Source: Erodium maritimum (Eukaryota; Streptophyta; Magnoliopsida; Geraniales; Geraniaceae). From it: a DNA stretch of 64,000 nt. Of this stretch, positions 8,453-63,257 are shown piece by piece; the first letter of the stretch is position 1, and every line of letters starts with the position of its first letter. The position numbers were made by a program, and so were the translations under genes. The stretch spans positions 15,009,001-15,073,000 of the forward strand of contig OY997596.1 of the NCBI GenBank assembly GCA_963921825.1, given 5' to 3'. The notes beneath the pieces were generated by a model that was not told where the DNA came from, made no database searches, and was given only the letters and a program-made list of their open reading frames with translations.

Positions 8453-8546
8453 TATTAGTCTTAGTGTCAATAGTTTAATCGTAAATGTCAAAATGTATAT
8501 ATCATCGTTAAAAAATAAATATAAAACGGTTTTATATTACTTATGT
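8453..8546 (+). repeat. Old copia LTR, left piece
   Basis: This matches the first 94 bases of the Angela-type LTR (TTAGTCTTAGTG, then ATGTATATATCATCGTTA) with clear divergence. It stops at the gypsy-1 insertion, and the same LTR continues at 20553 after the TATGT duplication. Confidence 0.82.
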
Positions 8547-9047
8547 TGTCACACCCCAAATTCAATGAACCGAACTCGGGACGCGAACATTTAAAAACAT
8601 AAAAACACTTGAACCTGTTTTGAATAAAAGCTTTGACATTTCCAATTACTTCTCAAAATAATAGTATTTATAATACAAAAACGTCCCAACAAGTGGACAA
8701 GGTACAAAATCCGTCACTAGACTCAACAAAAGTAACGACCAGACTCCGCTCCGAGCTCCACAAGCTTCAAGAGCTCACCTAGTCCGTCCGGTGATCAGTA
8801 CCTGTAGGAAAAGCAGCTAGGGGTGAGCGTTCGCTCACCTCCACGGATAACAGACTGACTATGGCATAAATAGTAGATAAAGCCAGTAACACCAAAACCA
8901 AAACCAACGCAAAAACCAACAACAAAACCAACACCAACTCAAGTACTCAACTGAACCACAACCCATTACCTTCCACAACAGACTCAACCTCAAACTTGTA
9001 AAGTAAAACCGACACAACCAACAATGACCTTCCCCCAAAGACACGAG

Positions 9048-42035: not shown

Positions 42036-42171
42036 TATGATTGGTGTTTTTTTATCGGCAAAGAAAATTTAAATTAAACCTTTCACAAGGAGGAAGAGGA
42101 GTACAAGAACGAGAGTCTAGCTACAGACTCCCCAACAGAAACAAACCACAACAAGGAAAACAACACTTGAA

Positions 42172-42310
42172 GGTATGAATGGGTACACAGACCCTGAAGC
42201 GATTAATGGGTACACGGACACTGAAGCAATGAATGGGTACGCAGACCCTGAAGCAATGAATGGGTATGCATGCTCTGAAGCTATGAATGGGTACGCAGAC
42301 CCTGAAGCCC
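42172..42310. repeat. 27-bp tandem array in the retroposon
   Basis: Five units of 27 bp carry AATGGGTAC starting at 42178, 42205, 42232, 42259 and 42286, each followed by an ACCCTGAAGC-type end. The period is a multiple of three, so an 85-codon minus-strand frame with repeated AYPFIASGS results. A looser repeat with GAGCATGNCGCTC follows at about 42340-42440. Confidence 0.85.
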
Positions 42311-43009
42311 CACACCGAGGAAGACCATTACGCTCTGAATACGAGCATGTCGCTCTGAATACAACCATGAGCATGACGCTCGGAATTCCATCACGAGCAT
42401 AGCACTATGAATACTACCACGAGCATGGCGCTCGGAAGACAACCAAGTGGCACACCAAAAAGGTCTTTTACCCGTATTTACCAACCATTAAGCACAAGGG
42501 ATACTGACTTAGCACCTACCACAAGCCAGTATCCAAACCTAAATGATCCGCTAGATCCACATTGATCAACATCCTGAAGGATAAAGAAACACGTCCCACG
42601 ACCGGATTTAAAAACGAAACGTCAGGCAAACTCCCGGTCCACTAGAAGTAGCAATAGCAGCTCCGTAACGATCCCCACACTGAATGAAGAAGCGCGTCCC
42701 ACGACCAGAGCTGGAAGTAGACACCTCTAATGACCCGATAGTAGTTCCTCCTTCGCGAGGTACTGATCACACGCTGGAGCTCATACTCAACCGTCCGAAA
42801 CCTAAATCCGACTACACCGAGAAAAGGCCCATAAGCGGGAGGACCGGTATTTCTACCGAGTACAAGCTACGACCTCCTAGCCGGCAGCAGCAAGTCATCA
42901 CGTCTAGGGATCTAAGGCTGGTATGCGAGCAGAGCGTTCCGAAACCGTGAACGGTAAGCCCTCGCCGGCCAACACCAAGCGAGGACCCGAAGCGGAAGGC
43001 CTTTAATTA

Positions 43010-45649
43010 TGTAACAACCGCCCCCGGTCGATCCCGTTCGAACTAGTGAAATCTGGCGAAAGCTGACTTTCTGTCGGAAAAGTCAACCAATGAGTCCAAG
43101 AGTCATTCGGGACCTTTCCGAGACCCAAAAAATCTTAGCCGTCGTTACGGTTAGCTTAGTTGGGTCGTTTCCTTTCAATTGGCTATTTTTACGAAAAAAG
43201 TCAAGCTCGGGTCAAACTAAGTCTAATTAATGACTAAACCTAATTAAATTAATTGAGCTGGAGATATTTTGGTAGATGTGGACCCACATGGACATGTGTT
43301 CATGATGGCTTGGAGGAGAATAAATGGGGCTAGAAAAACTCATTTGCCCTTGTTTGTGGAAAAAGAGAAGGAAGGGAGCTAAGGGGCATTTTGGTCCATT
43401 CTAAAATAGGATAAAGGGGCTACAGAGAGAGCATTTCAGCCCAATTCTTAGTGCTGGCCGAAATTACCAAGGGAGAGAGAGACAAAGAGTGGTTCCTTTG
43501 CTTGAAGAAGAACATAGGGAGGAAAAGGAAGCTACTTTGGATGTTTTTCTACACAAATCTTCCCCAAAACACATCTATTCTCATCCTTTCTACATTTCTA
43601 AGGTAAACCTTCAAACCAAATTCGTTTTTGTTGAAGTTTACATTATGGGTTTGAGAGAAAAGGCTTGAAACTAGTTGGGTTTGATGGGTTTTGAGGTCTT
43701 GTTGATTAATGGATGATTTATGAGGAGAAAGTGAAGTTTGATGTTAGAAATCAACTAAGTTCTTGTGTTTTTTATAAAACCCACTATTGGTATTGAAGTA
43801 GTGAGATTTTAAGACTATTTTGGAGGTTTGGAAGGTCATCAATGGAGGTTTGGAGGTTTGAAATTCGTGAGAACGAAGTTGAGGGAGGAAGAAGAAGAGG
43901 TCTGCCTAGACTGGCACGGAACGCCGCACGGACCGGACCTGATACTGGGCCAGAGTGCCGCATGGACCAGGTACCGGGCTGGTGTGCAGCATGGACCGTG
44001 CTGGGTACCGGGCCGGTGTGCCGCACGGGCCGGGCCGGGTACCGGGCCGGTGTGCCGCACGGGCCGAGCCGGGTACCGGGCCGGTGTGCCGCACAGGCCG
44101 AGCCGGGTATCGAGCCGGTGTGCCGCATGGGCCGGGCCGGGTACCGGGCCGGTGTGCCGCACGGGCCGGGCCAGGTACCGGGCCGGTGTGCTGCACAGGG
44201 CGGGTCCGGTACCGTGCTGGTGTGCCGCACGGGCCTGTGGGCCGCCTGGAATGGGCCTTGTGCCAGCCCAAATGGCCTTTGGTCCGTGTTTTGATTTTCA
44301 GAAGTAATTTGCTTGTTTTCTCGTTAAACCACTTTTGAATTAGTATTAACTCTCGTATTGCTTTGTACTCTTAGACGTTGGACCCGAGCACGGTGGAGGA
44401 GGCTACTAGGCAACTCTCGTTGACTAAGCGTTTGGATAGCATTTGAGGTAGGGGAAAGTAGCGGATACTGGTTTAATTGCGGAAAGTTACTAATATGCAT
44501 ATAGGACGTTAATAACCGGTAAAGTCTAGAAACGCATATAGGATGTGAATAACTAGTTTACTCGTATCTATATTATGGAAATTGTCGTGCTGTAGTATCA
44601 CATGTGGGTCCCCGGTTGTGCCCTTAGGATTGTGTGTTGGTTGTGATGCTATGAATGATGACTTGTGACGCTTGATATGTGGTTTATCCGTTGTTAGATT
44701 TAGGATCATGATATGGTATGCTTGGTGTGAGATGTTGGTATGTTATGTCAAGTGTGATATGTTTGGTGTGACGTGAACCAATGCTTGTGACATGATCGGG
44801 TGAGTGATAGACCGATGTGATGTGTTCGGTAAGATTGTTTGGTTTGGTGTGCTGATAGTTGAACTATGGCATTGTGATATGTTGAGACTTTCCGGCACGA
44901 TACCTACATCGAGGGGGTATGCCGGTGTAAGGTATCTAGGCCGAGGATGTTGTGATCCGTACCCCGATGATGTGTGGTCCGAGAAGACATCTAGGTCGAT
45001 GTTGTGTGGTCCGGTATGATGTATTGTGAGCTATACCCCGATGTTGTGTGGTCCGGGAAGATATCTAGGCCGATGTTGTGTGGTCCGGTACGATATGGTT
45101 GAGCCGGTTTGTGAGAGCCGACGACGTAGGGGATTGTTGTACGGGACTTGTGGGTGTTCTACTGTGTGTTGTTGCTTGATGATTGGTTATGTGAGGTGAT
45201 TAAATGTGGTTTTAGTCATGTGAGTGTGGGTTTTGATTATGTAAATCTCGTGGATGTCATTAGTTGTTGTGCCTTGCTTGTATTTCCTAATTGGACGGTG
45301 ACTCGTGGTGGTGAACGGATAACTCATCACCCTAACTACTTTTTCCTACTGAGCGAAAGCTCACCCCTCTATATTTACTGTTCTACAGGTTTTGAGCGGG
45401 ATTTGGTGTAGCGGAATTCTCAGAGCTTGGGAGCTAGCGAGAGTCTTAGTCTAGTATGGCCTAGAGACGTACTTTCCTATTGTTACTAAACATCTTTATT
45501 ACTTGGTTTCCGAGCTGTTGACTCGTTTTGTCAGATTTGATTGTTTAAACTGTTATTGGAGACTTACGTCATTTTAAAGTCGCTTTTATTTATTATCATA
45601 TTTTAGTTCACGTCTCGAGTCCGGTCAAAACCGGATTTGGGGCGTGACA
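43010..45649 (+). repeat. gypsy-3 5' LTR (2640 bp)
   Basis: It starts TGTAACAACCGCCCCCGG and ends TTGGGGCGTGACA. Inside are a stretch resembling a transcribed leader (43430-43900), the 34-bp minisatellite (43930-44240) and a zone of degenerate repeats with GATACCTACATCGAGGGGG and GTTGTGTGGTCCGG (44890-45110). There is no host gene. Confidence 0.92.
43930..44240. repeat. 34-bp GC-rich minisatellite in the gypsy-3 5' LTR
   Basis: About eight or nine units contain GGGTACCGGGCCGGTGTG and CCGCACGGGCCG. ACCGGGCCGG recurs at 44041 and 44075, a 34-bp step. Frames of 107-159 codons on both strands all come from this array. The 3' LTR has fewer units (52160-52370). Confidence 0.9.
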
Positions 45650-45652
45650 ATT

Positions 45653-45664
45653 TGGTATCAGAGC
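45653..45664 (+). other. gypsy-3 primer-binding site (initiator-Met tRNA)
   Basis: TGGTATCAGAGC lies three bases after the 5' LTR end and is complementary to the 3' end of initiator methionine tRNA. It is the same site as in gypsy-1 and copia-3. Confidence 0.93.
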
Positions 45665-46497
45665 CTGTTTTTTCAAAAACTTTGGACCGTACGTCAATTA
45701 GGTGGGTAGAGTTAAGTCGCTAGGTTTTCGTGTGTCGGTTACCCAAATCAGAAATGTCCTACGCGTGGGACCGAGACGAAGAGAGTCTCGGGTTAGTGAA
45801 ATGACATGTCTAGGTACCGTGTACTTGTAGTCAACCATTATAGTTGGTGGCATTGATTGTGTTATTCGGTTGTTGAGTGTTGGCTTGGCCGGGTGGTAAT
45901 AGCGTAATTACCAAAACCCGAGATGTATAGCTGCGTTGACTTGCTGTGTACTATGATTGTATTGATTGCTTGTGCAGGATGTGAGCTAAATGTCTCGCGT
46001 AAGCGGATGATTAGTAGAACTTTCTAACGGGTCATGCCCAATTTTCGGCAAAACTGAAGTGTTTGTACCATCACGATTTAACTTGAAACGTGACGAACGA
46101 GATGGAGGGATGTCAAGTGGTTACAACGTAGTTCGGGGATGCCTGAACCAGGTTCTAACGACACGATGTCAACATGGAATGTTATGTTAGAAAGAGGAAG
46201 TGTTAAGAACTTGAAACTAAGTTGATGTTTGTACATTGTGACATTGCTGGGTGATATGAATTGTGGATTGTGTGACTTGTGTGTGAAATTGTTGATTTGG
46301 TGTTCGACTTATATGGCGCACAAGTGTGCGGGTTCTTTGATTGTGTGAAACTAGTATAACTATACTAAGACTAAGTATACTATTAGTTCGAGTGCGACTT
46401 TTATGAAACGTGTGTGAACGATAGTTATTTAAGCGCGTCGCTTTATGCGAATTTAAGAAATGAACATGTGTGTTATCCGTGCAGCGGATATACAACA
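45665..46497 (+). other. gypsy-3 untranslated leader
   Basis: This is 0.83 kb between primer-binding site and gag. Unlike the gypsy-1 leader it carries no minisatellite. No gene is seen. Confidence 0.8.
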
Positions 46498-49400
46498 TGA
46501 TGCCTACCTACGTACCACGAGGCACCAGGAGCCGGCCAGCTGGAGGCCGAGGGCAGCCACCTGCCATTGAGTCGGCAGGGGAAACGAGCGCCCAGGGTAC
46601 ATCCCATGAGGGGCATGAGAGAGCTGATGCGTGACCATCGAGACTTCCGCCCAGAGTTCCGCCGGTCACAAAGCCGACCCAGGCGACAGTCCTGGAGGAT
46701 TTGGTCTGTATAGTTCAGGGCTTAGCAGCGTTCATTGCCCAGAGAGAGGCTACGGCTCCGACACTAGAGACTGTGCCTACTGACACTACAGCTCAGGCGC
46801 TGAGAGACTTTCGCAGACTGGGCACACCTATCTTTTCTGGGGAGCCAGACCCTGAGGCAGCCGAGAGATGGCTGGAGTGGATTACCCGCAACTTGGATAC
46901 GTCGTGGATCCTGGAGGGTCGCATGAGAGTATCCTTTGCAGCATTCCAGTTGGAGGGCGATGCCTACCATTGGTGGCAGCGCGAGCAGACTCTAGTCGGG
47001 GATGACTTTCAGCTGTTTGGACAGTGATTCTTGAAGCAGTATTTCCCACAGTCAGCACAAGAGGACAGGCACCAGCAGTTCCTAGAACTGCGTCAGGAGG
47101 GGATGACAGTATTTGAGTACGAGGCAAGATTCACTTCCTTGTCTCGCTTTGCCCCGGAGATGGTACCGACCGAGGCTCACCGCTGCAGACGGTTTGAGAG
47201 AGGGCTTCGCCCCGCGATTGTAGATCGGGTCATTGCACTAAGGACCCAGGTGTATTCGGATCTGGTGGATCAGGAACTACAGTGGAGCGACACTTTCGAG
47301 AGACAGCCCGAGCCCGGGAGAATAGGCCGAGATCGAGCGGGTTCTTGAGGCCGTCTGAGGCCTATGATCAAAGGAGACAGAGGACCTCAGGATCTTTCAA
47401 GCCCCAGATGCAGTCGAGCGGGACGTGACAGGTCGGATCAGTGGCATCTGTTTGACCTACCTCGTCAGGGCGGGCGTGTTTCAGGTGCGGACAGTTGGGC
47501 CCCATTGCTCGAGACTGTCCGAGGAGCGGGCCAGCAGATCGTCCAGCGGGCAGGCCTGAGGGGAGGCCGAGTGCTGGGCCGCCGCTATGCCACTAGTGCG
47601 GACGGCCTGGATACTTCGCTGCTAGGTGCCCTGATCAGTTTGGAGGGACATCGGCCCCGCGACCGCAGCAGTCGCAGACTAGGCAGTCACCTCAGTTCCA
47701 CCAGCGTCAGGCTCAAACGTCGAGAGCTCCACGGCAGGCAGGGAGCGCTCCAGCGCCGAGGCAGCATCAGAGAGCTCCGCAGTAGGTGGCACCTCTACCA
47801 CCTCCGAGGGGAGGACCTCAGGCACTGCAGGGAAGGGTGTATGCAGTCGCCGACTCCCGAGCTGAGGGACATCACTTCGGTCATGAGACCACCCAGGGTA
47901 CGTGCCTGCTTTACAATTCTTGGGTGTCCTTCTTACTTAATACTGGGGCATCACATTCTTTCATCTCTTCTACTTTCGCTGGTATGTTGGGGTTAATGGT
48001 AGAGCCTTTGAGTCGACCATTATGTCTTGACACCCCGGTTACGGGGATGTGGTCCTGATTAGCGTTTGTCGTGCATGTGAGATTAGAGTGACTGATTTCC
48101 CTTTTCTTGGTGATTGGCTTGTGTTGGACATGACGGCATTTGATGTGATCTTGGGGATGTACTGGTTTGCGAGGTACCGGCCGTCGATCGATTGTTATCG
48201 ACGGTAGGTGACAGTGGTATCGGGCGACACGATCATCACTTGTGTCTTGGGCAGTAGGAGTGGAGTTCTTCTGTCAACATTGACTGTGGGAGATGAGGTG
48301 GAGCCCGTGCAGAGTAGAGAGCTGCCGCGAGTGGTGTCTGAGTTCCCGGAGGTCTTTCCGGAGGAGTTGTCAGGATTGCTACCAGTGCGCGAGGTTGAGT
48401 TCAGGATTGACCTGATTCCGGGGACGGCGCCGATATCGATGGCTCCGTACCGGTTTTGCACCAGCCGAGTTGGTCGAGCTGAAGCGACAACTCGAGGAGC
48501 TTCGGGAGAAGGGATTTATCCGTCCAAGCACTTCACCGTGGGGAGCGTCTGCCCTCTTCGTGAAGAAGAAGGGTGGAGCGCTGAGGATGTGCATCGACTT
48601 CCGGAAGTTGAACCGGGTCATGGTGAAGATCCGCTATGATGCTGAGGACCGATGGCTTGTTCGATCAGTTGAGAGGATCAAAGTGCTTCTCGAAGATTGA
48701 TCTACGATACGGATATTATCAGTTGAGACTTCGGGAGGAGGATGTGGCGAAGACAGCGTTTCAGACTCGATATGAACACTACGAGTTCCTGGTGATGTCG
48801 TTCGGACTGACGAACGCGCCTGCAGCGTTCATGGATATGATGAACGGTATCTTCCGACCCTACCTAGATTAGTTCGTCGTGGTATTCGTAGATGACATTC
48901 TGATCTACTCACCGAGTGAGGAAGCGCATGTGGAGAATCTGAGAACAGTTTTGACCTTGTTGCGCACTTATCAGCTGTACGGCAACTTGGAGAAGTGCGA
49001 GTTCTGGGTCGCCGAGGTGAAATTCATCGGTCATGTTGTGTCCCGAGAGGGTATACTGGTCGATCCGGCAAAGATCGACGCGGTTTCGAAGTGGGCACGG
49101 CCCACGACTGTCTTTGAGATCCGCATCTTCCTAGGTTTGGCGGGATACTATCGACAATTCGTCCAGGATTTCTCACGCCTGACCGCGCCGATGATTGCCC
49201 TGACGCACAAGGGAGCCGAGTTCGTGTGGAATGAGGGTTGTGAGCGCTCCTTTACCGAGCTGAAGGCTCGTCTGACTACCGCAACCGTATTGATAGTGCC
49301 GGAGCATGGGATCGGATATGATGTGTATTGTGATGTGTCCGGTGAGGGACTGGGGTGTGTATTGATGCAGTCAGGGAAGGTAGTTTCTTATGGCAACTAC

Positions 49401-51195
49401 CCTACCCATGACTTAGAGTTGGCAGCAGTCGTCTTTGCACTGAAGAGCTGGCGACACTGCTTATATGGAGAGCGATTCCGAGTGTTCTCGGATCACAAGA
49501 GTCTTAATTACATCTTCTCCCAACGAGACTTGAACATGCGCCAGAGGCAGTGGATGGAGTGACTTGAGGAGTACGACTTCGAGCTACTTTACCATTCAGG
49601 TAAGGTGAACGTCGTCGCTGATGCCCTGAGTAGGAAGTCGATTCACTGCCTTGTCGGTATATCAGTCCGAGAGTGGGACATGATGGAGGAATTGAGCACG
49701 TTTAGGCTTGAGCTATATGAGATCACTGATGGCGTGGCCATGTGTTCGCTGGTGGCTCAGCCCACAATAGTTGCTCGAGTGTTGGAGGCGCAGGCCGAGG
49801 ATGCCGAGGCGGCAGAGATCCGGGAGAGGATTACCAGAGGTATTGACGCAGAGGGCTGGGAGCAGGGTACTGATCAGGGTCTACGTTACCGAGGAGGACT
49901 GTTTTGTGCCGCGCAGCTGTAGAGACGACGTGTTGAGAGAGTCTCATCACTCGCGTCTTGTTGTGCACCCGGGTGGCACCAAGATGTATCGGGATGTCAG
50001 GCGGCAGTTTTGGTGGAGCGGGATGCGGAGAGCGATTGTAGAGTTTGTCTCGAGATGCCTCACTTGTCAGCAAGTGAAGGCCGAGCATCGGCGTCCCGCC
50101 GGTTTATTACAGTCACTACCGATCGCACAGTGGAAGTGGGAGCACGTCACGATGGATTTCGTGTGCGGCTTACCGAGATCGCCGAGAGGGCATGATGCAG
50201 TTTGGGTAGTGGTCAATCGACTGACCAAGTGGGCGCACTTCTTGGCCATGAGGATGACTGATACGGTTGACATTCTGAGCCGTTTGTACGTTCGGGAGAT
50301 TATCCTTCTTCACTGGGTTCTAGTGTCGGTTGTGTCCGACAGAGATCCACGATTCACCTCCAGGTTTTGGGAGAGTTTGCAGAGAGCACTGGGGACCGAG
50401 GTCCTGCTCAGTACAGCGTATCACCCATAGACGGACGGACAATCAGAGCGCACGATTCAGATCTTAGAGGATATGATGTGGGCATGTGTGTTGGACTTCC
50501 GAGGGTCATGGGAGGACCACTTACCATTGGCCGAGTTTGCGTACAACAACAACTTCCAGGCCAATATCGGAATGGCACCGTTTGAGGCGTTGTATGGTAG
50601 GCCGCGCCGATCGCCCGTGTGTTGGGAAGAGGTGGGAGACAGGAGTTACTTGGTCCGGATCTTGTCCGAGAGAAGACCGAGAAGTTCGCGCTGATTTGGG
50701 AGCGGTTGAAGACCGCGCAGAGCCCGTAGAAGAGTGATAATGATAAACGGCGCCGACCTCTCGAGTTTACAATCGGTGATCATGTGTTCCTGAAGGTGAG
50801 CCCGAAGAAGGGGCTAGTGCGGTTCAACCGCGGCGGAGGAAAGTTGGCCCCGCGGTATATCAGACCTTTTGAGGTTTTGGACAGAGTGGGAGTCGTTGCT
50901 TACCGTCTTGCATTGCCACTGCAGCTTGAGAACGTTCATAACGTCTTCCACGTTTCCCAACTACGGAAGTTCACTACGGATCCCTCCCACGTTATTGAGT
51001 GGACATACATCGAGGTAGCTGAGGATGTTTCGTATGAGTAGCAGCCAGTCAGGATTCTAGATACGCGAGAGCAGGTCTTGCGTGGCAAGACTATCCCACT
51101 AGTACGGGTGCAGTGGCGGCACCACGGAGCAGAGTCGACCTAGGAGCGCGAGGATGAGGTTCGTGAGAAGTACCCCAACCTGTTCGACCCTTAAG
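46498..51195 (+). pseudogene. gypsy-3 gag-pol, damaged
   Basis: Gag opens at about 46498 (MMPTYVPRGTRSRPAGGRG) with a Retrotrans_gag domain at about 46800-47260 (FSGEPDPEAAERWLEW; FEYEARFTSLSRFAPEM). A zinc-knuckle zone follows near 47480. Protease with NTGASHSFISS lies near 47940, reverse transcriptase at about 48400-49000 ([15 protein letters not shown] near 48885) and RNase H at about 49310-49560 ([17 protein letters not shown]). Integrase runs from about 49930 ([27 protein letters not shown]) to about 50600, and a C-terminal tail ends near 51190. It is a fossil with around ten breaks, and the domain order is complete. Confidence 0.9.
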
Positions 51196-51209
51196 GTACG
51201 TTCGTTTTA

Positions 51210-51245
51210 AATTTCGCGAACGAAATTCTTTTAACGGGGGTAGAT
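51210..51245 (+). other. gypsy-3 pre-PPT motif and polypurine tract
   Basis: AAATTTCGCGAACGAAATTC is followed by TTTTAACGGGGGTAGAT against the 3' LTR start. It is the same arrangement and nearly the same sequence as in gypsy-1, although the LTRs of the two families differ. Confidence 0.85.
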
Positions 51246-53000
51246 TGTAAGAACCGTCTCCGGTCGATCCTGGTCGAACCGGTGAAATCTGGCGAAAGTT
51301 GACTTTCCACCGGAAAAGTCAACCGATGACTCCAAGAGTCATTCGGGACCTTTCCGAAACCCAAAAAAGCTTATTCGTCGTTACGGTTAGCTTAGTTGGG
51401 TCGTTTCCTTTCAATTGGCTATTTTTACAAAAAAGTCAAACTCGGGTCAAACTAAGTCTAATTAATGTCTAAACGTAATTAAATTAATTGAGCTGGAGAT
51501 ATTTTGGGTAGATGTGGACCCACATGGACATGTTTCCATGATGGATTGGAGGAGAAGAAATGGGGATAGAAAGACTCATTTGCCCTTGTTTGTGCCAAAA
51601 GAGAAGGAAGGGGGTTAAGGGGCATTTTGGTCCATTCTAAAGTAGGTTAAAGGGGCTAGAGAGAGATCATTTCAACCCAATTCTTAGTGTTGGCCGAAAT
51701 CACCAAGGGAGAGAGAGAGACAGAGGTTCCTTTGCTTGAAGAAGAAGAAGAAAGGGAAGAAAAGGAAGCTACTTTGGGTGTTTTTCTACACAAATCTTCC
51801 CCAAAACACATCTATTCTCATCCTTTCTCCATTTCTAAGGTAAACCTTCAAACCAAATTCGTTTTTGTTGAAGTTTACATTATGGGTTTGAGAGAAAAGG
51901 CTTGAAACTAGTTAGGCTTGATGGGTTTTGAGGTCTTGTTGATTAATTGATGATTTATGAGGAGAAAGTGAAGTTTGATGTTAGAAATCAACTAAGTTCT
52001 TGTGTTTTTGATAAAACCCACTATGGGTATTGAAGTAGTGAGATTTTGGGACTGTTTTGGAGGTTTGGAAGGTCAACAATGAAGGTTTGGAGGCTGGACA
52101 TTTGTGGAAACGAAGTTGAGGGAGTACGAAGAAGAGGTCTGCCCAGACTGGCACGGAACGCCGCACGGACCGGACCTGATACCGGGCCGGAGTGCCGCAT
52201 GGACCGGGCCAGGTACCGAGCCGGTGTGCAGCACGGACCGTGCCAGGTATCGGGCCTGTGTGCCACACGGGACGTGCCAGGTACCGGGTCGGTGTGCCGC
52301 ACGGGCCAGGTACCGGGCCGGTGTGCCGCACGGGCCGGGCTGGGTACCGGCATGTGGGCCGCCAGGAATGGGCCTTGTGCCGGCCCAAATGGCCTTCGGT
52401 CCATGTTTTGATTTTCGGAAGTAATTCGTTTGTTTTCTCGTTAAACCGCTTTTGAATTAGCATTAATTCTCAGATTGCTTTGTAATCTTAGACGTTGGAC
52501 CCGAGCACGGCGGAAGAGGCTACTAGGCGACTCTCGTTGACTAAGTGTTTGGATAGCATTTGAGGTAGGGGAAAGTAGCGAATACCGATTTAGTTGCGGA
52601 AAGTTACTAGTATGCATATACGACGTTAATAACCGGTAAAGTCTAGAAACGCATATAGGATGTGAATAACTAGTGTACTCATATTTAAATTTTGGGAATT
52701 GTCGTGTTGTAGTATCACATGTGGGTCCCCGGTTAGGCCCTTAGGATTGTGTGTTGGTTGTGATGCTATGAATGATGACTTGTGATGCTTGATATGTGGT
52801 TTATCCGTTGTTAGATTTAGGATCATGATATGGTATGCTCGGTGTAAGATTTTGGTATGTTATGCCAAGTGTGATATGTTTGGTATGACGTGAACTGATG
52901 CTTGTGACATGATCGGGTGAGTGATAGACCGATGTGATGTGTTCGGTAAGATTGTTTGGTTTGGTGTGCTGATAGTTGAACTATGGCATTGTAATATGCT
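51246..53000 (+). repeat. gypsy-3 3' LTR, left piece
   Basis: It starts TGTAAGAACCGTCTCCGG and is collinear with 43010-44882 of the 5' LTR. It includes a shortened 34-bp array (52160-52370, about five or six units). It stops at the copia-3 insertion in the sequence GTAATATGCT. Confidence 0.92.
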
Positions 53001-54688
53001 TGTTAGTCTTAGTGCCCGTAGTTCAATCCTAAATGTCCAAATTTATATATCATCGTTAGCAATAAAATTAAAGCGGATTTATATTACTTATGTGATGGAG
53101 TAATATATCGATGTGTGCTCTGATCTATGCCCACCATGCGAATAGAACCATAGATCGAGATAGATCACACTCGATGGGTCCCTAGTCAACAAAGCTTCAC
53201 TAGAAGCGACTAGTATGAAAGATGACTCTTTATGGCTTACGTTCTGTTAGTCATTGGAATGGGATTCCGGAGTCTGATCATAGATATCATGTGGGACATG
53301 ATATTGGATGACCCGACATGAATATGTGCCATAGATCAAGTCATGAACATATTCATTGTCGTAGCTTGTCATGTATCCTTAGACCAAGGAGTCTTTGTGA
53401 TCGCTATGTAGTCAACAACTGAGTTTGACCTGAGCCTAACGTTGTCCGTAACAGGACTTCCATAACGGCCAGGATTGGCTTGGGGACGGGCTACATGAGT
53501 GACACGAAAGACGGCTAAGGGATTTATCCCTCATACTAAGGTATGAGATAGATATCGGTTCTCGGCCGCTTGATCGAGAGTGGCTGAAAGAATAGCATGG
53601 CCATGCATATGATACTAGGTATCATATATTCAGTCATCTCACATATCAAGGAACAGTGATTCAGAATGATAAGGATGACGGCTCTATGCCTTATCTCAAT
53701 CAAGATATCGGAGATAAAAGGATAATGACAGGGACGACGGAAAGGTTAGAATCGACAGGCTCGATTCGTTATGCAGTGTCAGGCAATACTAAAGTCTCGT
53801 TAGTTTCCACTTAAATAGGATCAAGTAAAATGGGATTTTACGTTGATCTATTGACATGCATAAACCTAAGGGTCACAGCGGAGGGTGAAACTCATTGACA
53901 CATTTATGGAGAATGGCCAAAAGGGAGTTGTCTCGGGACTTGATCAAAACTCGGTTTTGAGTCATGTGCCCGTAAGTGAATAGGACTTTACGGATCAAGA
54001 CAAGGCTTGGAGTCTTGGGATTGATCGCGTCGGAAAATGTTGGACATTTCCGGTATGGAAGGCTTGGAGGCGATGAGCGAATCACGAGACCTCGTTGGAA
54101 ATGGCCACGGGCCATGTTCCAAGAGGCCCATGAAAGACCCATGCAACCAAGGCCCATGGAACTAATTAATCAAGTCTTGATTAATTAGTATTAAGCAAGC
54201 AAGACAAGGATTAAGGTGTTGGTGATTCACCACCTAACCCAATCTTGTCTTGCCATACTTTGTCCTATTTACACCTTACTTGACACCATACTTGTCTCAT
54301 GCCTTTAGTTGGACAAGTATGGGTTTTGTTATGTTGAAGTGATCTTTTTTCAACATAAAAAACACAAGACAAGAATAGGAAACACAACTTCTCTCCCCCT
54401 TCCCTTGCAATTTCGGGTTTGGCAAGCTCCCACCTCCATTTTTGTGTTCTTGAGTCCTTAAAGAGAAGAACTACGTGTCTTTGATTCCCATGTAGATACG
54501 TAGGCGTCTTGGAGACTCAAGTCAATCATTCGTTACCCGGTGTTCTTGTTTTGGTAAAAACTAGTGCTGAATTTTTCTCTTGTGAATCCATTCTTTGTTA
54601 GTTGTTTCATGGTTTTAATCGTCTCTTGGTTTTCATTGATTTTCCGCTGCGAGTTGGTTCATCTCCAACCCTACTTCGAGACCCAACA
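53001..54688 (+). repeat. copia-3 5' LTR (1688 bp)
   Basis: It begins TGTTAGTCTTAGTGCCCG and ends CGAGACCCAACA. It pairs with 59758-61439 and contains the family's central palindrome near 54160-54190 and the antisense frame 53873-54157. Confidence 0.93.
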
Positions 54689-54689
54689 G

Positions 54690-54701
54690 TGGTATCAGAG
54701 C
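54690..54701 (+). other. copia-3 primer-binding site (initiator-Met tRNA)
   Basis: TGGTATCAGAGC lies one base after the 5' LTR end. Confidence 0.93.
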
Positions 54702-56229
54702 CGTGCTACCTTCGGGATTCACAAGACGGTGTTCAAAGTTTCGGTTTTGCTTGAAAGTTTCGTTTTTCGCATGTTGTTTTGCTAAATTGTTTGATAACAT
54801 GTTTAAAATTCTTGTTTATGGATTTAATGCATGTAAAATGAATTTTTGAAAATTATTTCAAATCTGGAAATTTTGAAAAAAGTTTGATTTTTCGGGTCTC
54901 GGGAGCGGGATTCTCGGGGAGCCGAAACCGAGACCGAACGGGGCTCCGTTGGACGAAGCTAGGCCAAGCATGACCATTGTATGGTTGATATGCTAAGGCT
55001 AAACCATTTTGTTAGTTATGACGAGTTTGGAACCGTCATGACGAACTCGAAGATCAAATGTTCAAAAGTTTCATTTTTGAACGGTTTCGATAAACCGAGC
55101 ATCAAAAATTTTCGAAACTTGGCTATTAAATAAAACTAGAAAATCACATGATTGCTTGATAACACGATGTGTGATGTGATGTTGGCATGGTGTACATAAT
55201 AGCCCCGAGCTCGATTTAATTATTTATCGCTTTTCACGGCCCGCGAGCCGTTAGAGTTAGCGTGTAATTATTCTTTCAAGGTGTGGTCGTCGAACCACTT
55301 GTTTGTAATATTTATTTATTCCCGACCTGCGATTCGTGTATTAAATTTTAATATTTTACTCAAGACGAAGAAAGGGCGAAAAGGTCATTTGATGGCTTTT
55401 CGGGTGTTGGCATCGGCTTGGAGTCGGTGGAGCTCAAGAAGCTAGTGGGAGTTAGTTTAGGGGGCTATTATGTGCACATTTATCGTTTTATGCTTGGTTT
55501 AGTTTATGCATGATTAATTCTATGTGTTTTAGAATTGCATGCTTAACTTTATTTACCGAGCATATCACCTCACATGCAAAGATAAAATTGGAATTTTAAT
55601 CCTTGTGTGTAAGCCCTTAGAATCGTCATTACATTGTATGTAGTTGACGGGTTCGAAGGAAGAATTACATTGGATGTAATTTGAGGCATCATTTCATTTG
55701 GAATGTAGTTGATGTGCTCATCGCATCTAGGATGTGTCAAAGTTTTAAACACAACCGGACAAGTAAAAACGGGTCATGTCCGATACATCCCAATTATCAA
55801 CACCTTACTACCTCCCCGTCCTATGGGTGTCGTGCGCATTAGCGGAGCATCCATGGGAAAGCGGGGTAGTAGGTTTGGACGACATATGTGGGTGTCGTGC
55901 GCATTAGTGGAGCACCTACATAGTGACGAGCCATAGTTGAGAATTGGTGGACCCGACTATGATTCTCAGCCTGAGGTTGAGCTAGGGTAACAGATAGGGT
56001 AAGCCGTGTACATAAGTACATACCCTAGCCAAGAGTCACATTGGATGTGATTGGATGGAGTACTACCTACATAGCTCGATTAAGTGGTGAGCATTAGTTC
56101 AGCTTAATCGAGTGAATCAAGGATCTTGGTTTCAGATTCTAAAGGTTTAGAATCGATTGTTGGTGTTTAAGCTTGATCTTCATAAAATTTATTCATTTTA
56201 CTGATTGAATTTTATCTGTTGTAGATCAA
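54702..56229 (+). other. copia-3 untranslated leader (1.5 kb)
   Basis: This long non-coding stretch lies between primer-binding site and gag. It aligns with the copia-2 leader (inverted) and, from 55533, with the copia-1 leader. It shows the intact hAT target GCATTAGC near 55840. No gene is seen. Confidence 0.85.
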
Positions 56230-59200
56230 ATGGAAAATTCAGCGAACATTAATAGTTTGTCATTAAAAACCATTCTTGACAGGGTCAAGCTAAATGGGAC
56301 AAACTATTTGGACTGGTACAGAATTTTGAGGATAGTCCTCAAGTCTGAACGCAAAGAATATGTCCTTGACAAGATTGTCTCTAAGACCATCTCAGAGTTA
56401 TATGAAGTGTCAATAACTGCTGAGAAGAATATATCAGGGATCTGGGATCCAAGGATATTCTGATGGTCAACAAGGGAATTGGAAGTGGCAAGGGCGGGGT
56501 CCATGCGCACTTGGCAGGAAAGATGAGACACCTGAGAGTGTCTGCTTCTACTGCCAACAGCCTGGTCAGTGGAACCGGGATTACAGGAAGTTCACGGCTG
56601 ATCTGAAGAAGGGCAGTGGGACTGCGCCTTCATCAAATAGCCTGGATGATCTGAAGAAGGGCAGTAGGACTGCGCCTTCATCAGGAAACCTGGATGATCT
56701 AAGGAAGGGCGGTGGGACCGTGCCTTCATCCGGTATTAACTCTATAGAGCTACATCTCTCTACTTCCAAAGATTCATAGGTATTAGATACTATGACTGAA
56801 TCTCACACATGCACTAATATATGGTGGGTGAAAGTAGGAGAGGTTTGGAAAGCACGAAGTGGACCTCAGAGTTGTGGCAACTGCTGTAGGATCCATGAGT
56901 GTTGCTTTGCCAAGTGGCCTTGTCTTAGTATTGTATAATGTATATTGCATACCTACTTTTAGTAGGAATATTATATCTGTATCTGTGTTTGACAAGGAAG
57001 GATATAAGTTTAATATTGGAAATGGAGTTTTCAATGTTCTATGCAATGATATGTTTTATACCAGTACTGACTTGGTTGAAAGATTGTACATATTAGATAT
57101 GGTTAACAATGCCTCAAGTTCTATATATTGCGTTAATACCAAGAGGTCTAAATCCAACGATTTAAACCTAACTCTGTTATGGCACTGTCATTTGGGTCGC
57201 ATAAACAAGAAGCGCCTATCGGCACTTCAGAAGTGCGGGCTTTCAGGTTCATTCGAATTCCATTCGATCGATAGGTGCAAGGTTTGTTTGATAGGCAAAA
57301 TGACTAAAGTGCCCTTTATCGATCGCGATGAAAGGGCGGGTGAATTATTGGGGCTGATACACTCGAATGTGTGTAGACCAATAACTTCACTTGCCAGGAG
57401 GGGTTTTAGCTACTTTATCACATTTACTTATGATTACAGTAAATATGGTTATGTCTATTCGCTGAGACATAAGTCTGAAGCTTTTGATAAATTCAAAGAG
57501 TTTAAGACTAAAGTAGAAAACCAGCTCGACAAAGGTATTAAGGCACTTCGATTGGATCAAGGTAGAAAACACTTGAACACAGAGTTATTAGATCATCTAA
57601 AAGAGAATGGGATCCTTTTGGAATAGACTCCTCCTGGGACACTATAGTTGAAAGGTGTAGCCAAACGGAGAAATCGGACATTGTTAGACAATGGTCCGTT
57701 CCATGACTAGTTGGATTGATCTCCTAATCTCTTTCTGGGGTTATGCTCTAGAGACGACCGCATTCATAGTGAATCTGGCTTCGACGAAGGGTATGGAAGG
57801 GACACCATTTTAAAATGGTACGGGATGATGCACGCTTTGTCCTTCCTAAAGATTTGTGGTTGCGAGGCTTATGTGAAACATTTGGTTTCGACTAAGCTCG
57901 AACCAAGATCTGAGATATGCACCTTCGTGTGGTGTCCCAAAGCAACAAGGGATACTATTTCTACAATCCCAGTGAGAACATGGTGTTCGTCGCTTGGGGT
58001 GGGGTCTTTATGGAAAAGAAGTTTTGTTTCCAAAGACGTCATTGGAAGGACTGTGCATCTCGAAGAAATTCAGGATGGTACAGATCTGTCTAAACCAATT
58101 GACAACCCAGTAGAAAGGAGCCAGAGATTGTCGTAGAGTGAGAACCAATTCCTGTTACAATTACGGAAGGTCCAAGGCGATTTGAAAGGGTCAATCTTCC
58201 ACTTCCAAGATATGGTATCCGGAGGTGACAATGAAGTCATGGTGGATCACGATGATCCAGCCACCTTTCAAGAAGTCGTGGATGGGCCCGACTCTGAGTT
58301 ATGGCTGGGAGCCATGAGGGAAGAAATGCAATCCATGTCGGACCACCGAGTTTGGGAACCGGTTGATCCCATCAATGGTGTGAGGACCATCGAATGCAAA
58401 TGGATCTTCAAGGTGAAGATGGACATGGACGGCAACCCTCTGACCTACAAAGCTCAACTGGTGGCGAAAGGTTATAGGCAGATCCAATGGATTGAATATG
58501 AGGAAACCTTCTCCCTAGTGGCTATGGTCAAAATCGTTCCAAATTCTTTTTGACATAACTGCGTATCATAATTACGAGATATGGCAAGTGGATGTCAAAA
58601 CCGCTTTCCTAAATGGAAATTTGACAGAGTACGTTTGTATGTCTCGGCCAAACGGTATTGACGATCCGAAGAATAAGGGAAAGATTTATAAGTCGTTGAA
58701 ATCCATTTATGGATTAAAACGAACTTCTCGGAGTTGGATCCTTCGTTTTGATGAAGCTGTAATTGGATTTGGCTTAATCAAGAACGAGGATGAATCTTGC
58801 GTTTTATAAGAAGGCTAGTGGGAGCAAGATTACCTTTCTGGTTCTCATTGAAAACGACATCCCAACCTTGCACGAGACTAAAGCTTGGCTGAGGAAGTGT
58901 TTTTCAATAAAGGACTTAGGCGATGCTTCTTATATCTTAAGGATTAAGATATGTAGAGATCGCACTAAGAGGGTCTTGGATTTAAGTCAGGGAACCTATG
59001 TGAACAAGGCATTCAGTAGGTTCTTAATGCTCGATTCAAAGAAAGGACTCTTACCCACTAGTCATGGCATTCATCTCAGCAAGACTCGGTGTCCTAAGAC
59101 ACCTGATGAGCTGAAAAGGATGATGAGAATCCTATGCGCCTGGGGGCAGGATCGATCATATATGCCATGACATGTATGAGACCGGACGTCTCGTAAGCCT

Positions 59201-59740
59201 TATGTTGTACCAGTAGACATCAGTCTAACCCGAGGGAAAGATGATGTTGAACTAGTCGTCGAAGGATGAGTAGACGCTAGTGTTCCAAGACAAATCCATA
59301 TGACTTTAGAAGTCAGTCAGGATATGTGTTTATGTTGAATGACAGAGCTTTAGCTGGGAGAGCGTAAAGCAAGATAGCAATGCCGAATCTACGACAGAGG
59401 CCAAGTACATGGATGCTGCAGAGGCAGCTAAGGAGGCTATGTGGATTTGGAAATTCACGGTAGGGTTGGGTGTAATTAAAAACCCATCCAGCCCGGTGAA
59501 TCCATTTTGCGACAACACAAGGGCCGTTGCGCAAACTAAAAGCCCAGATCGCATAACAAATCCAAACATGTACTACGGTGTATCCACCTAATCAGAGAAA
59601 TACTGAACTGAGGTGAAGTGAAGATAACCTATATTGCAACAGATGATAACATAGCCAACCCTTTGACTAAAGCAGTGTCACTGCGTAAACATGTTAGACA
59701 TGTAAAGTCGATGGGGACATATTGGAGTTTAGATTGGAAC
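56230..59740 (+). pseudogene. copia-3 degenerate gag-pol
   Basis: It begins MENSANINSLSLKTILDRVK. Parts in order are a gag remnant with a zinc-knuckle-like zone (about 56540-56590), the 48-bp triplication (56600-56740), a protease zone (about 56770-56930), integrase with LLWHCHLGRINKK (from about 57175), reverse transcriptase (about 58250-59200) and RNase H (about 59330-59730, AKYMDAAEAAKEAMW). It is a fossil with about ten breaks. It is near-identical in layout to copia-1, so both derive from the same already defective parent lineage. Confidence 0.9.
56600..56740 (+). repeat. 48-bp triplication in the copia-3 gag region
   Basis: Units start at 56600, 56648 and 56696. It is the counterpart of 3270-3405 in copia-1. 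Confidence 0.88.
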
Positions 59741-59741
59741 T

Positions 59742-59757
59742 AGGGCAAGTGGGAGAT
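59742..59757 (+). other. copia-3 polypurine tract
   Basis: AGGGCAAGTGGGAGAT-type tract directly before the 3' LTR; the same sequence as in copia-1. Confidence 0.85.
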
Positions 59758-61439
59758 TGTTAGTCTTAGTGCCCGTAGTTCAATCCTAAATGTCCAAATG
59801 TATATATCATCGTTAGCAATAAAATTAAAGTGGCTTTATATTACTTATGTGTTGGAATAATATATCGATGTGTGCTCTGATCTATGCCCACCATGCGAAT
59901 AGAACCATAGATCGAGATAGATCACACTCGATGGGTCCCTAGTCAACAAAGCTTCACTAGAAGCGACTAGTATGAAAGATGGCTCTTTATGGCTTACGTT
60001 CTGTTAGTCATTGGAATGGGATTCCGGAGTCTGATCATAGATATCATGTGGGACATGATATTGGATGACCCGACATGAATATGTGCCATAGATCAAGTCA
60101 TGAACATATTCATTGTCGTAGCTTGTCATGTATCCTTAGACCAAGGAGTCTTTGTGATCGCTATGTAGTCAACAACTGAGTTTGACCTGAGCCTAACGTT
60201 GTCCGTAACAGGACTTCCATAGCGGCCAGGATTGGCCTGGGGACGGGCTACATGAGTGACACGAAAGACGGCTAAGGGATTTATCCCTCATATTGAGGTA
60301 TGAGAAAGATATCAGTTCTCGGCCGCTTGATCGAGAGTGAATGAAAGAATAGCATGGCCATGCACATGATACTGGGTATCATATATTCAGTTATCTCACA
60401 TATCAAGGAACAGTGATTGAGAATAATAAGGATGACGGCTCTATGCCTTATCTCAATCAGGATATCGGAGATAAAAGGATAATGACAGGGACGACGGAAA
60501 GGTTAGAATCGACAGGCTCGATTCGTTATGCAGTGTCAGGCAATACTAAAGTCTCGTTAGTTTCCACTTAAATAGGATCAAGTAAAATGGGATTTTACGT
60601 TGATCTATTGACATGCATAAACCTAAGGGTCACAGCGGAGGATGAAACTCATTGACACATTTATGGAGAATGGACAAAAGGGAGTTGTCTCGGGACTTGA
60701 TCAAAACTGGGTTTTGAGTCATGTGCCCGTAAGTGAATAGGACTTTACGGATCAAGACAAGGCTTGGAGTCTTGGGATTGATCGCGTCGGATAATGTTGA
60801 ACATTTCTGGTATGGAAGGCTTGGAGGCGATGAGCGAATCACGAGACCTCATTGGAAATGGCCACGGGCCATGTTCCAAGAGGCCCATGAAAGGCCCATG
60901 CAACCAAGGCCCATGGAACTAATTAATCAAGTCTTGATTAATTAGTACTAAGCAAGCAAGACAAGGATTAAGGTGTTGGTGATTCACCACCTAACCCAAT
61001 CTTGTCTTGCCATACTTTGTCCTATTTACACCTTACTTGACACCATACTTGTCTCATGCCTTTAGTTGGACAAGTATGGGTTTTGTTATGTTGAAGTGAT
61101 CTTTTTTCAACATAACAAACACAAGACAAGAATAGGAAACACAACTTCTCTCCCCCTTCCCTTGCAATTTCGGGTTTGGCAAGCTCCCACCTCCATTTTT
61201 GTGTTCTTGAGTCCTCAAAGAGAAGAACTACGTGGCTTTGATTCCCATGTGGATACGTAGGCGTCTTGGAGACTCAAGCCAATCATTCGTTACCCGGTGT
61301 TCTTATTTTGGTAAGAACTAGTGCTGAGTTTTTCTCTTGTGAATCCATTCTTTGTTAGTTGTTTCATGGTTTTAATCGTCTCTTGGTTTTCATTGATTTT
61401 CCGCTGCGAGTTGGTTCAACCCTACCTCGAGACCCAACA
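59758..61439 (+). repeat. copia-3 3' LTR (1682 bp)
   Basis: It starts TGTTAGTCTTAGTGCCCG and ends CGAGACCCAACA. Its right neighbour ATGTTGAGACTCTCC is gypsy-3 LTR sequence. It is slightly shorter than its partner near the end (TTGGTTCAACCC). Confidence 0.93.
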
Positions 61440-62263
61440 ATGTTGAGACTCTCCGGCACGATATGTTTCGAAACGAGGTATTCCAGTACGATACCTACAC
61501 CGAGGGGGTATGCCGGTGTAGGGTATCTAGGCCGAGGGTAGTGTCCCACGTACGTGGTCCCCCGGGGCTGAGGTTCCGATACGATACCTACATCGAGGGG
61601 GTATGCCGGTATAGGGTATCTAGGCCGAGGATGGTGTGATCTGTACCCCGATGTTGTGTGGTCTGGGAAGACATCTAGGCCGATGCTGTGTGGTCCGGTA
61701 TGATGTATTGTGAGCTATACCCCGATGTTGAGCCTGCGACATAGGGACTGTTGTACGAGACTTGTGGGTGTTCTATTGTGTGTTGTTGCTTGATGATTGG
61801 TTATGTGAGGTGATTAAATGTGGTTTTAGTCATGTGAGTGTGGTTTTTGATTATGTAAATCCCGTGGATGTCGTTAGTTGTTGTGCCTTGCTAGTATGCC
61901 CTAATTGGACGGTTACTCGTGGTGGTGAGCGGATAACTCATCACCTTAACTACTTTTTCCTACTGAGCGAAAGCTCACCCCTCTATTTTTACTGTTCTAC
62001 AGGTTTTGAGCGGGATTTGGTCTAGCGGGATTCTCAGAGCTTGGGAGCTAGCGAGAGTCTTAGTCTAGTATGGTCTATAGACGTACTTTCCTATTGTTAC
62101 TAAACATCTTTATTACTTGGTTTCCGAGTTGTTGACTCGTTTTGTCAGATTTGATTGTTTAAACTGTTATTGGAAACTTAGTTCGTTTTAAAGTCGATTT
62201 TATTTATTATCATATTTTAGTTCACGTCTCGAGTCCGGTCAAAACCGAATTTGGGGCGTGACA
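61440..62263 (+). repeat. gypsy-3 3' LTR, right piece
   Basis: It is collinear with 44883-45649 and ends TTGGGGCGTGACA followed by AATTA. It has one more GATACCTACATCGAGGGGG-type unit than the 5' LTR (61490-61600), so this internal repeat also varies in number. Confidence 0.92.
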
Positions 62264-62268
62264 AATTA

Positions 62269-63246
62269 TACTGAGCACGAACCAACCTATACCCAGAAAA
62301 TTCCATCAAAGCTAGCTATCAATAGCAGATCGACCGATAGGCCGGATTTATCGGTGGCCAACACCTGAAAAACCAGCCAAAAACCAACCCAAAAATCGAT
62401 TCTGCAAGGAGGCTCCCCAAACTCCAATGGAAAGGAGACAACCTCAATGGAAGGTGGGGTGGAATGAGCAGCACCCATACCGGAACACACCGGACCTGCA
62501 GGTAGAGATCACCAAGATCTATGAAAACGAAGCCACACTCCAGCGAACCCGAGCAGCCCGACCTCAGCCAGAATCAGAGAGCAAATTTCGCCGGAAGCAC
62601 CCGCCCACCCCGGCCTAGACCAACCAGACCCAGACCTAATCCAGACCTAGACCAGGCCTAGACCAGACCAGGCCCGACCACAGATTCGCCGAAAATAACA
62701 CCGGTCCAATACCACAGAACAATACAAACCATAAAAAGGGGGTGAGAACCTGACCCTCGAGACCAGAGAGACGAGCCGAGAGGTGGAGGAGGTGCGGCCT
62801 TGTTGTCGGAGACGAGAAGCAACGCCGGAGCCGAGTACGCTTCCGAGGAACAGGAGTACAAGGCGAGCGGAGAGGCGGAGGAGATGCGACCTTGTTGCTG
62901 GAGATAAGAAGCAACGTTGGAACCGAGAACGCTTGCAAGGCCGGACTGAGGCTGCAACCGAATCGCAGCGTCCACCCATCAAACCCACAGATCTAGCACG
63001 CAAACTGGTTGAAAACTTAGCGAAGACGGACACCAACACTGAGAACCAGGGACGACAGAAGCTGGGGAAGGAGGAAAAAGGAAAGGGTCTGAGGGAGAAG
63101 CTAAGGGGGAGGAGGAGAGGCCTTCGCCGCTGATCGGAGCCCAGGCCATCACCGGCGGGGGCAAGGTAAGGGGAGGCGGCCGAAAAATAGAAGTGAAGCT
63201 AGGGTTGGGAAAAGGGGAGGTGGAGTCTAAATTATATATAAAAAAA
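62269..63246 (-). other. Retroposon 5' half: CT-rich leader with TATA-like tract
   Basis: Read on the minus strand it begins TTTTTTTATATATAATTTAG, then a CCCTAGCTTCACTTC-type leader, then a short frame MAWAPISGEGLSSSPLAS from about 63149. An 85-90 bp segment is tandemly duplicated (about 62785-62945; AGAAGCAACG followed by CCGAG and ACGCTT in each copy), giving overlapping Arg-rich frames of 100-130 codons. These frames look like by-products, not a protein. Nothing matches a LINE coding domain. Confidence 0.6.
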
Positions 63247-63257
63247 TATGATTGGTG

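Follow-up and report, generated by a model that had tools for sequence, protein, structure and literature searches.

What kind of element has its two target duplications 21 kb apart? The question is raised by a stretch of 64,000 nucleotides from Erodium maritimum (GenBank assembly GCA_963921825.1, contig OY997596.1, positions 15,009,001 to 15,073,000; hereafter the window), in which the 11-bp sequence TATGATTGGTG bounds two non-coding segments at positions 42036-42046 and 63247-63257. The original prediction, made from the letters alone, had joined these segments into one retroposon interrupted by a later insertion and proposed a non-autonomous family dependent on a long interspersed nuclear element (LINE). 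On the minus strand, this retroposon (termed E) runs from 63246 to 62269 and then from 43009 to 42047, a total of 1,941 bp (978 + 963). Our analysis points to a long non-coding retroposon that is present here as an old copy of full length, and the RNA of which would be copied in trans by a LINE-1-like element (L1) of the same genome, and we hold this explanation, taken as a whole, to be very probable. The members of its family are most likely long composite retroposons for which a plant L1, recognising their tail, provides mobilisation in trans.

Both occurrences of TATGATTGGTG are exact and no third one was found in the window; in 100 dinucleotide shuffles the sequence occurred 0.04 times on average and never twice (0/100). 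The two halves of E were used as separate queries against the plant's own genome (763 Mb). The 3' half gave at least 73 matching pieces (best 40 of 3,133 first-look candidates scored) and the 5' half at least 45 (best 40 of 64). The junction between the halves is uninterrupted at 13 of 19 distinct other places fetched, with at least about 95 bp aligned on each side; the remaining six have one side only, or an alignment that barely crosses the junction of E. Since the halves are continuous at those 13 places, E is one unit elsewhere and is split in the window. Both the wide spacing of the duplications and the joining of the halves are upheld by these results, and the search with separate halves, which had been suggested with the original prediction, returned dispersed copies in which they adjoin.

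Around family matches, 20 loci of about 9.5 kb each were examined. The 25/26-nt 3' end is present in 20/20 loci with 0-6 mismatches, and in none of five shuffled windows (one strand tested); at L037 the match belongs to another element, this locus being apparently the far part of an interrupted L036 copy. Target duplications were found by searching each 3' flank upstream of the element, and most of them start with an A that is possibly part of the tail. Their score exceeds 12 at 5 of the 20 other loci compared to 0 of 100 shifted control positions. Dispersed copies with duplications of 7-20 bp had been anticipated, and five copies of 1.6-2.1 kb with duplications of 12-16 bp (which may include one tail A) were found; apart from E, four delimited copies that start CT-rich measure 1,638-2,110 bp. 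A core of about 680 bp is common to E and 12 of the 20 loci, with 77-91% pairwise identity. In the genome, a 30-nt tail motif occurs at 99 places exactly and at 2,218 with up to three mismatches, and a 30-nt core motif at 519 places with the same tolerance; neither reversed pattern occurs (0 in each case). Linkage of core and tail among the listed genome places comes down to one pair (by eye), too thin to use. By these matches, E is one of hundreds of related copies dispersed in the genome. Some copies may have a more complex build: by reading, a repeat (about 1.65 kb) is inserted in the L047 composite at 865-2,523 (about 2498-4157, minus strand), 1,534 bp of it being 93% identical to a stretch of L034 (about 7028-8547) near another copy, and two core 30-mers lying 230 bp apart on one strand (C1:117581863 and C1:117582093) suggest a composite with a duplicated core.

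The absence of a coding domain, part of the proposed anatomy, is in line with the scans made. Two sense-strand open reading frames (ORFs) of E (183 and 73 aa) were without Pfam match at 0.01, the scan covering these two only. Differences in the core by position modulo 3 number 417/406/469, so that no coding pattern is evident there. Among ten of the longest ORFs in L029-L048, Pfam found no L1 domain; LTR-retrotransposon (LTR, long terminal repeat), hAT and host-gene (LRR kinase) matches were obtained, and four ORFs had no match. Rfam at gathering thresholds gave no match in five loci.

The 3' tail contains a hairpin site. In all 41 tails, the stem pairs in 80.7% of cells (reached by 0/500 shuffles), changes on both sides are seen in 28 cells (0/500), 20 further pair types occur (2/500) and the covariation score is 0.373 (0/500); every slid version of the stem is lower on every measure. 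A set of 32 tails omits the window copy, L036, L037, L041, L045, L053, L054, L059 and L067, several of which are decayed or shifted. In this set, stem columns 24-31/37-44 pair in 83.5% of cells, double changes affect 8/8 pairs and 0/500 shuffles reach any of five measures. Because relatedness alone may lift sequences above shuffles, most weight falls on the slid control. RNAalifold, unaided, recovers 5 of the 8 tail-stem pairs. Combined, these comparisons argue that the tail hairpin is kept by compensatory changes.

Which element could read this tail? For 20 of the 99 exact tails, the 300 bp upstream were examined. The composite signature, with up to five mismatches, is carried by eight of them and by 0 of 1,000 shuffles, a descriptive count because the signature was derived from the same tails. 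For five of these 20, chosen because their tails looked non-composite, slices of 281 bp were taken 720-1000 bp upstream of the tail. The same L1 ORF2 C-terminus (..QSYSWEWSKFK...FFS...CISWR) is encoded in all five, and T/G-rich sequence comes after it; aligned to the longest, L075, the other four score 111-142 compared to 42-47 for the best of 300 shuffles each. The genome was searched with this C-terminus of 59 aa, the best 150 of 3,567 first-look candidates being scored. When the best 66 of these places are set against the 99 exact tails, six tails lie 0.8-1.1 kb downstream of a C-terminus on the same strand, three of these pairs being new, and no pair occurs in the wrong order or on the wrong strand. 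The 3' untranslated region (UTR) of the partner is about 0.77-0.92 kb long. One of the six pairs, C1:33256578, lies within an open frame of 1,228 aa. Within this frame, a stretch of 861 bp was read that is likewise open and matches the reverse transcriptase (RT) domain RVT_1 (E-value 1.7e-33); among solved structures, LINE-1 ORF2 is the best match of its translation (2.8e-31) and R2-type proteins are far behind (1.2e-8). The 59-aa C-terminus found no match in a PDB search and none in Pfam. The partner is most likely a LINE-1-like element, as judged from RVT_1 and from LINE-1 ORF2 as the best solved match. An autonomous LINE sharing the 3' end had been named as support for the original prediction, and the L1 identified here has this 3' end together with an open frame for RT. 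Over the parts compared (0-300 and 720-1000 bp upstream of five tails), this L1 and the composites have the last ~60 bp in common and nothing else by BLAST, the longest tail match being 118 bp at 75% for one tail.

Other candidates for the partner were rejected. Of 150 scored zf-RVT places (best of 12,902 first-look candidates), none was seen to lie within 3 kb of any of the 99 exact tails on the right strand, as judged by eye. Three L1 LINEs taken from these places, those of L049-L051, have short 3'UTRs and other tails. Their frames around zf-RVT are open over 1,349-1,373 aa, and their tails, CGTCAAAA-like or TTTGCATTTCTCTCAAAA-like, represent other tail types in this genome.

Our explanation starts from what the copies show: their 3' end is fixed, target duplications flank several of them, related copies lie dispersed, no coding domain was found, and the tail is common to an L1 in which the RT frame is open. 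Transcription would begin near the CT-rich leader, probably by RNA polymerase II (Pol II), and yield an RNA of about 1.6-2.1 kb, A-poor and T-rich, the leader also being rich in C and the body in G. The L1 ORF2 protein would bind the hairpin tail (the hairpin, then TTTAATTTAAATTTGCTTTGCYGATAAAA) and nick the target; reverse transcription would be primed on the A-rich end (target-primed reverse transcription) and leave duplications of about 11-16 bp. This mechanism is proposed because the tail is common to an L1 and carries compensatory changes, because the copies have duplications, and because copy L045 is apparently 5'-truncated. For the recognition of the tail RNA by the ORF2 protein, we draw on the zebrafish elements ZfL2-1/ZfL2-2 (PMC4176376) and on the monocot pairs (PMC3747384). 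Overall, the adjoining halves, the duplications and the L1 with the same 3' end support the proposed non-autonomous, LINE-dependent retroposon.

Several observations weigh against this explanation. The duplication score reaches 12 in just 7 of 20 loci, leaving 13 without a duplication, and L033 and L045 score exactly 12, as do 3 of 100 controls. The first ~570 bp of E match mostly in pieces and at ten listed places only, so that the 5' part of the family is not uniform; L047 is the clearest match and other delimited copies have different 5' parts. Regarding the hairpin, double changes at 8/8 pairs in all 41 tails are matched by 30/500 shuffles, the folding of single tails is modest (z < -1 in 20/41), and the tail of the window copy has z = -0.35, its hairpin being decayed. 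As for the partner, L074, one of the five L1 slices, has in-frame stops, and the comparison of L1 with composites covers the stretches 0-300 and 720-1000 bp upstream of the L1 tail.

At the 5' end, the leaders of the copies start CT-rich with AACCCTA and, in most, CCGGYGATGGCC (by eye). Over the first 140 nt of six copies, 10 of 15 pairs exceed all but at most 5 of 200 mononucleotide shuffles in similarity, and 5 of 15 do not. The CT-rich leader, the internal duplicated segment (80 bp, 81%), the 27-bp array (5.2 units) and the L1-like 3' end predicted for the window copy are all present. The TATA promoter reading, in contrast, was not supported: the TATA-like TATATATAA lies in the first ~15 nt of E, ahead of the BLAST alignment with L047 (which starts at E 30), and was not seen by eye when the first 60 nt were inspected in five further delimited copies, although L031 has TATAGA in that interval. 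On this comparison it is not a family feature, and it probably stems from the junction or the target.

Plant L1 5'UTRs are often CT-rich with AACCCTA. The leader, which resembles them, and the tail common to an L1 could therefore also fit an internal-deletion derivative of L1 (HAL1-like), built from the 5'UTR and 3'UTR of one L1 lineage that lost its reading frames. We regard this origin as improbable: in the L1 parts read, the match is confined to the short tail segment given above, no L1 protein domain was found in the two sense ORFs tested, and the repeat units of the body were not seen in the 300 bp read of five L1 tails. A short interspersed nuclear element (SINE), with an RNA polymerase III (Pol III) small-RNA head on a LINE tail, would have the same plan of a non-coding body on a LINE tail and would here be unusually long. 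This alternative is mostly refuted and very unlikely, as six delimited copies lack a B box (one mismatch allowed) over their first 200 nt, no tRNA was found in the 5' half of E, and the length is 1.6-2.1 kb (1,941 bp for E), whereas SINEs are typically under about 700 bp.

More improbable still is a DNA transposon (Mutator-like, with 9-11 bp duplications) or a non-autonomous element derived from an LTR retrotransposon. It would account for the 11-bp duplication and for a 9-bp inverted match, TTTTTTTAT, at the ends of the window copy. However, when the first 30 nt of six delimited copies are compared with the reverse complement of the last 30, only 6-16 positions agree, the value of 16/30 being that of the window copy, which starts in a run of T and ends in a run of A. 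The long inverted repeats that had been named as speaking for a Mutator-like origin were thus not seen in these copies. Between the first and last 400 nt of five copies there are matches of 9-17 nt only, just the 9-bp one being terminal, and the terminal direct repeats of LTR-derived elements (large retrotransposon derivatives, LARD, or terminal-repeat retrotransposons in miniature, TRIM) were not seen in these five copies. Furthermore, duplication length varies, and the 3' end is fixed and A-rich whereas the 5' ends vary. Finally, a chimeric locus, in which the pairing of the halves or the duplications would be coincidental, fits the rarity of the 5' 570 bp together with the rest but is already refuted and deserves practically no credence, as the junction is kept at 13/19 other places and the 5' end of E falls within about ten nucleotides of that of the separately delimited L047.

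The body of the retroposons holds repeat units. A 27-bp array is present in 12 of 21 sequences, with 2-9 units by unit scan (up to 10.3 by Tandem Repeats Finder, TRF), and in none of the other nine; by this distribution, the array of variable length is a feature of one subfamily. In 6 of the 12 array-bearing sequences it adjoins a 26-bp array (TRF), which is also present in the window copy; of the array content predicted there, the 27-bp array stood and the 26-bp array beside it had been missed. A further unit, GCTTMATGGTTGNTAAAT-NN-stem-loop, is found in 21 of 41 sequences, 36 times in all, with 4-bp stems of various composition (GGGT/ACCC, GGGT/ACCT, AGGT/ACCT, GGAT/ATCC, GGTC/GACC). Pairing within units exceeds permuted pairing (0/2,000 permutations reach the observed mean), and 16 strict full stems were observed compared to a permutation mean of 7.7 and maximum of 13; the 36 units include related copies, which inflate this test. 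The covarying stems of this unit are a strong lead, at the level of sequence comparison. None of the five L1-type tails showed the GCTTMATGGTTGNTAAAT hairpin unit within the 300 bp examined. By eye, a hairpin repeat, GCTTC-CTGCGT-GAAGC in its commonest form, was noted in the composite tails L070, L061 and L052; its loop is that of the 27-bp unit GGGT-CTGCGT-ACCC, which suggests changing stems around a constant loop. Hairpin density in the 3' region (z 0.2 to 4.4 in 21 sequences) is suggestive only. A structure of the core (E 765-1440) is not claimed: RNAalifold gave z -3.8 relative to column-shuffled controls in 2/6 windows, but these have only 4 double changes each, in 40 and 50 pairs.

These hairpins, namely the GCTTMATGGTTGNTAAAT unit stems and the units of the 26/27-bp arrays (GAGC..GCTC, GGGT..ACCC), allow a more speculative proposal, which we put forward as tentative and rather doubtful. 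The plant lineage may have evolved its own SVA-like parasite, the body of which would be largely a string of hairpins kept while their stems change; these would bind L1 ORF1/ORF2 protein or a host factor and recruit the L1 particle, and the tail hairpin would start reverse transcription.

Features of the window are listed in the table below together with the copies delimited elsewhere. The insert between the halves had been predicted as a single gypsy element with its own AATTA duplication; the gypsy type and the duplication were recovered, and the insert proved to consist of two nested LTR elements. In self-comparison, the outer-element LTR at 43010-45653 pairs with 51246-52998 + 61481-62267, and the copia-like LTRs at 53000-54691 and 59757-61442 are 97.3% identical. 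Among four ORFs of the insert that were scanned, two have RT_RNaseH/RVT_1 and Integrase_H2C2 (outer, gypsy-type), one has gag_pre-integrs, rve and Pol_BBD (inner, copia-like) and one is without match. After insertion of the retroposon, the gypsy-type element split the window copy, and the copia-like element invaded the gypsy-type element. Both gypsy-type LTRs also contain a 34-bp GC-rich tandem array (43970-44235, 7.8 units; 52160-52350, 5.8 units).

Table. Features of the window (window coordinates; E coordinates follow the retroposon from its 5' end) and retroposon copies delimited by duplications at other loci
Feature	Position	Strand	Basis or remark
Target-site duplication TATGATTGGTG, element 3' end	42036..42046	.	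exact, two in window
Retroposon 3' half, E 979-1941	42047..43009	-	genome search matches
3' tail common to L1 partner, then TTTAATTTAAATTTTCTTTGCCGATAAAAAAA	42047..42108	-	hairpin site about 42079-42099, decayed here
27-bp tandem array, 5.2 units	42168..42308	-	unit number differs in sister copies
26-bp tandem array, 4 units	42341..42445	-
Recurring hairpin unit GCTTMATGGTTGNTAAAT-NN-(GGGT)-loop-(ACCY)	42461..42493	-	36 units, 21/41 sequences
Conserved core, second part, E 979-1440	42548..43009	-	holds family 30-mer, 519 places
AATTA target duplication of outer LTR element, left	43005..43009	.	flanks insert
Gypsy-type LTR element, later insertion	43010..62263	+	LTRs 43010-45653 and 51246-52998 + 61481-62263, by LTR pairing; RT_RNaseH, RVT_1, Integrase_H2C2
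Copia-like LTR element inside right gypsy LTR	about 53000..61442	+	own LTR pair; Pfam domains
AATTA target duplication of outer LTR element, right	62264..62268	.	flanks insert
Retroposon 5' half, E 1-978	62269..63246	-	adjoins 3' half at 13/19 other places
Conserved non-coding core, first part, E 765-978	62269..62482	-	aligned in E + 12/20 loci
80-bp internal duplication, E 307-386 + 399-478	62769..62940	-	81% identical
CT-rich, A-poor 5' leader, AACCCTA ... CCGGYGATGGCC (motif by eye)	63047..63227	-	related to L047, more weakly to other delimited copies
Target-site duplication TATGATTGGTG, element 5' end	63247..63257	.	exact, two in window
Copy L031			duplication 14 bp; element 2,110 bp
Copy L032			duplication 15 bp; element 2,021 bp
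Copy L033			duplication 12 bp; element 1,978 bp
Copy L044			duplication 16 bp, one mismatch; element 1,638 bp
Copy L045			duplication 12 bp; element 741 bp, apparently 5'-truncated
Copy L047			duplication 16 bp, one mismatch; element 3,840 bp
Copy L048			duplication 13 bp; element 1,681 bp

How does this family compare with known L1 passengers? HAL1 and other deleted L1 derivatives keep L1 ORF1 or UTR sequence, and SVA elements end in plain poly(A). The present family resembles HAL1 in being apparently non-autonomous and L1-dependent and differs from it in that no L1 ORF1 or UTR sequence was detected, in comparison with the 3' pieces of the partner and by Pfam only. It differs from SVA in its sequence-specific hairpin tail common to L1. 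Composites of this kind easily escape notice, since they have no coding content and, as in the window, are broken up by younger insertions. No long non-coding L1-dependent plant family appeared among the titles and abstract starts listed from the open-access literature, a result that does not show absence in print. A single genome offers some 2,200 tail motifs together with a matched L1 in which the RT frame is open, so that the reading of specific RNA tails by plant L1s can be tested, both on sequences and in assays.

Three more known systems are close to the family. Firstly, the ORF2 proteins of ZfL2-1/ZfL2-2 (zebrafish, L2 clade, stringent-type) recognise their own 3' stem-loop, as established by experiment (PMC4176376). 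They serve as a model for the recognition step, which is proposed here by analogy for a LINE-1-like element. Secondly, ZmSINE2/3 and LINE1-1_ZM of maize/sorghum have a common 3' end of ~50 nt with a hairpin that carries compensatory changes (Ohshima 2013, PMC3747384). In the same source, the conserved hairpin tail is described for one monocot L1 lineage, with a conserved loop UCU and flank CGAG, the tobacco TS SINE is also named as a SINE/LINE pair, and three pairs are counted in flowering plants. A hairpin tail common to a plant L1 and a non-coding passenger is thus already known from the maize/sorghum SINEs (PMC3747384), and our family shares with them the non-coding retroposon, the plant L1 with a common 3' hairpin and the compensatory changes. 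In contrast to ZmSINE2/3, which are monocot SINEs, its body measures 1.6-2.1 kb, no Pol III head was found and the tail sequence is different.

Thirdly, SVA and LAVA are non-coding composites with a variable number of tandem repeats (VNTR) that are moved by L1 in trans, as demonstrated by assay (PMC4432496), and the VNTR composites are described in that source as specific to hominoid primates. The present family is likewise composite and apparently non-coding, it includes tandem arrays that vary in copy number, and mobilisation in trans by L1 would apply to it. Unlike those of SVA/LAVA, its arrays have units of 27/26 bp, lie near the 3' end and belong to one subfamily only; the resemblance is one of plan and not of parts. 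This plan of SVA/LAVA (PMC4432496) is that of a passenger some 2 kb long which carries a variable tandem array and in which, here, no Pol III head was found. In conclusion, the family suggests a plant counterpart to the long L1-driven composites with tandem arrays that are described as specific to hominoid primates (PMC4432496).

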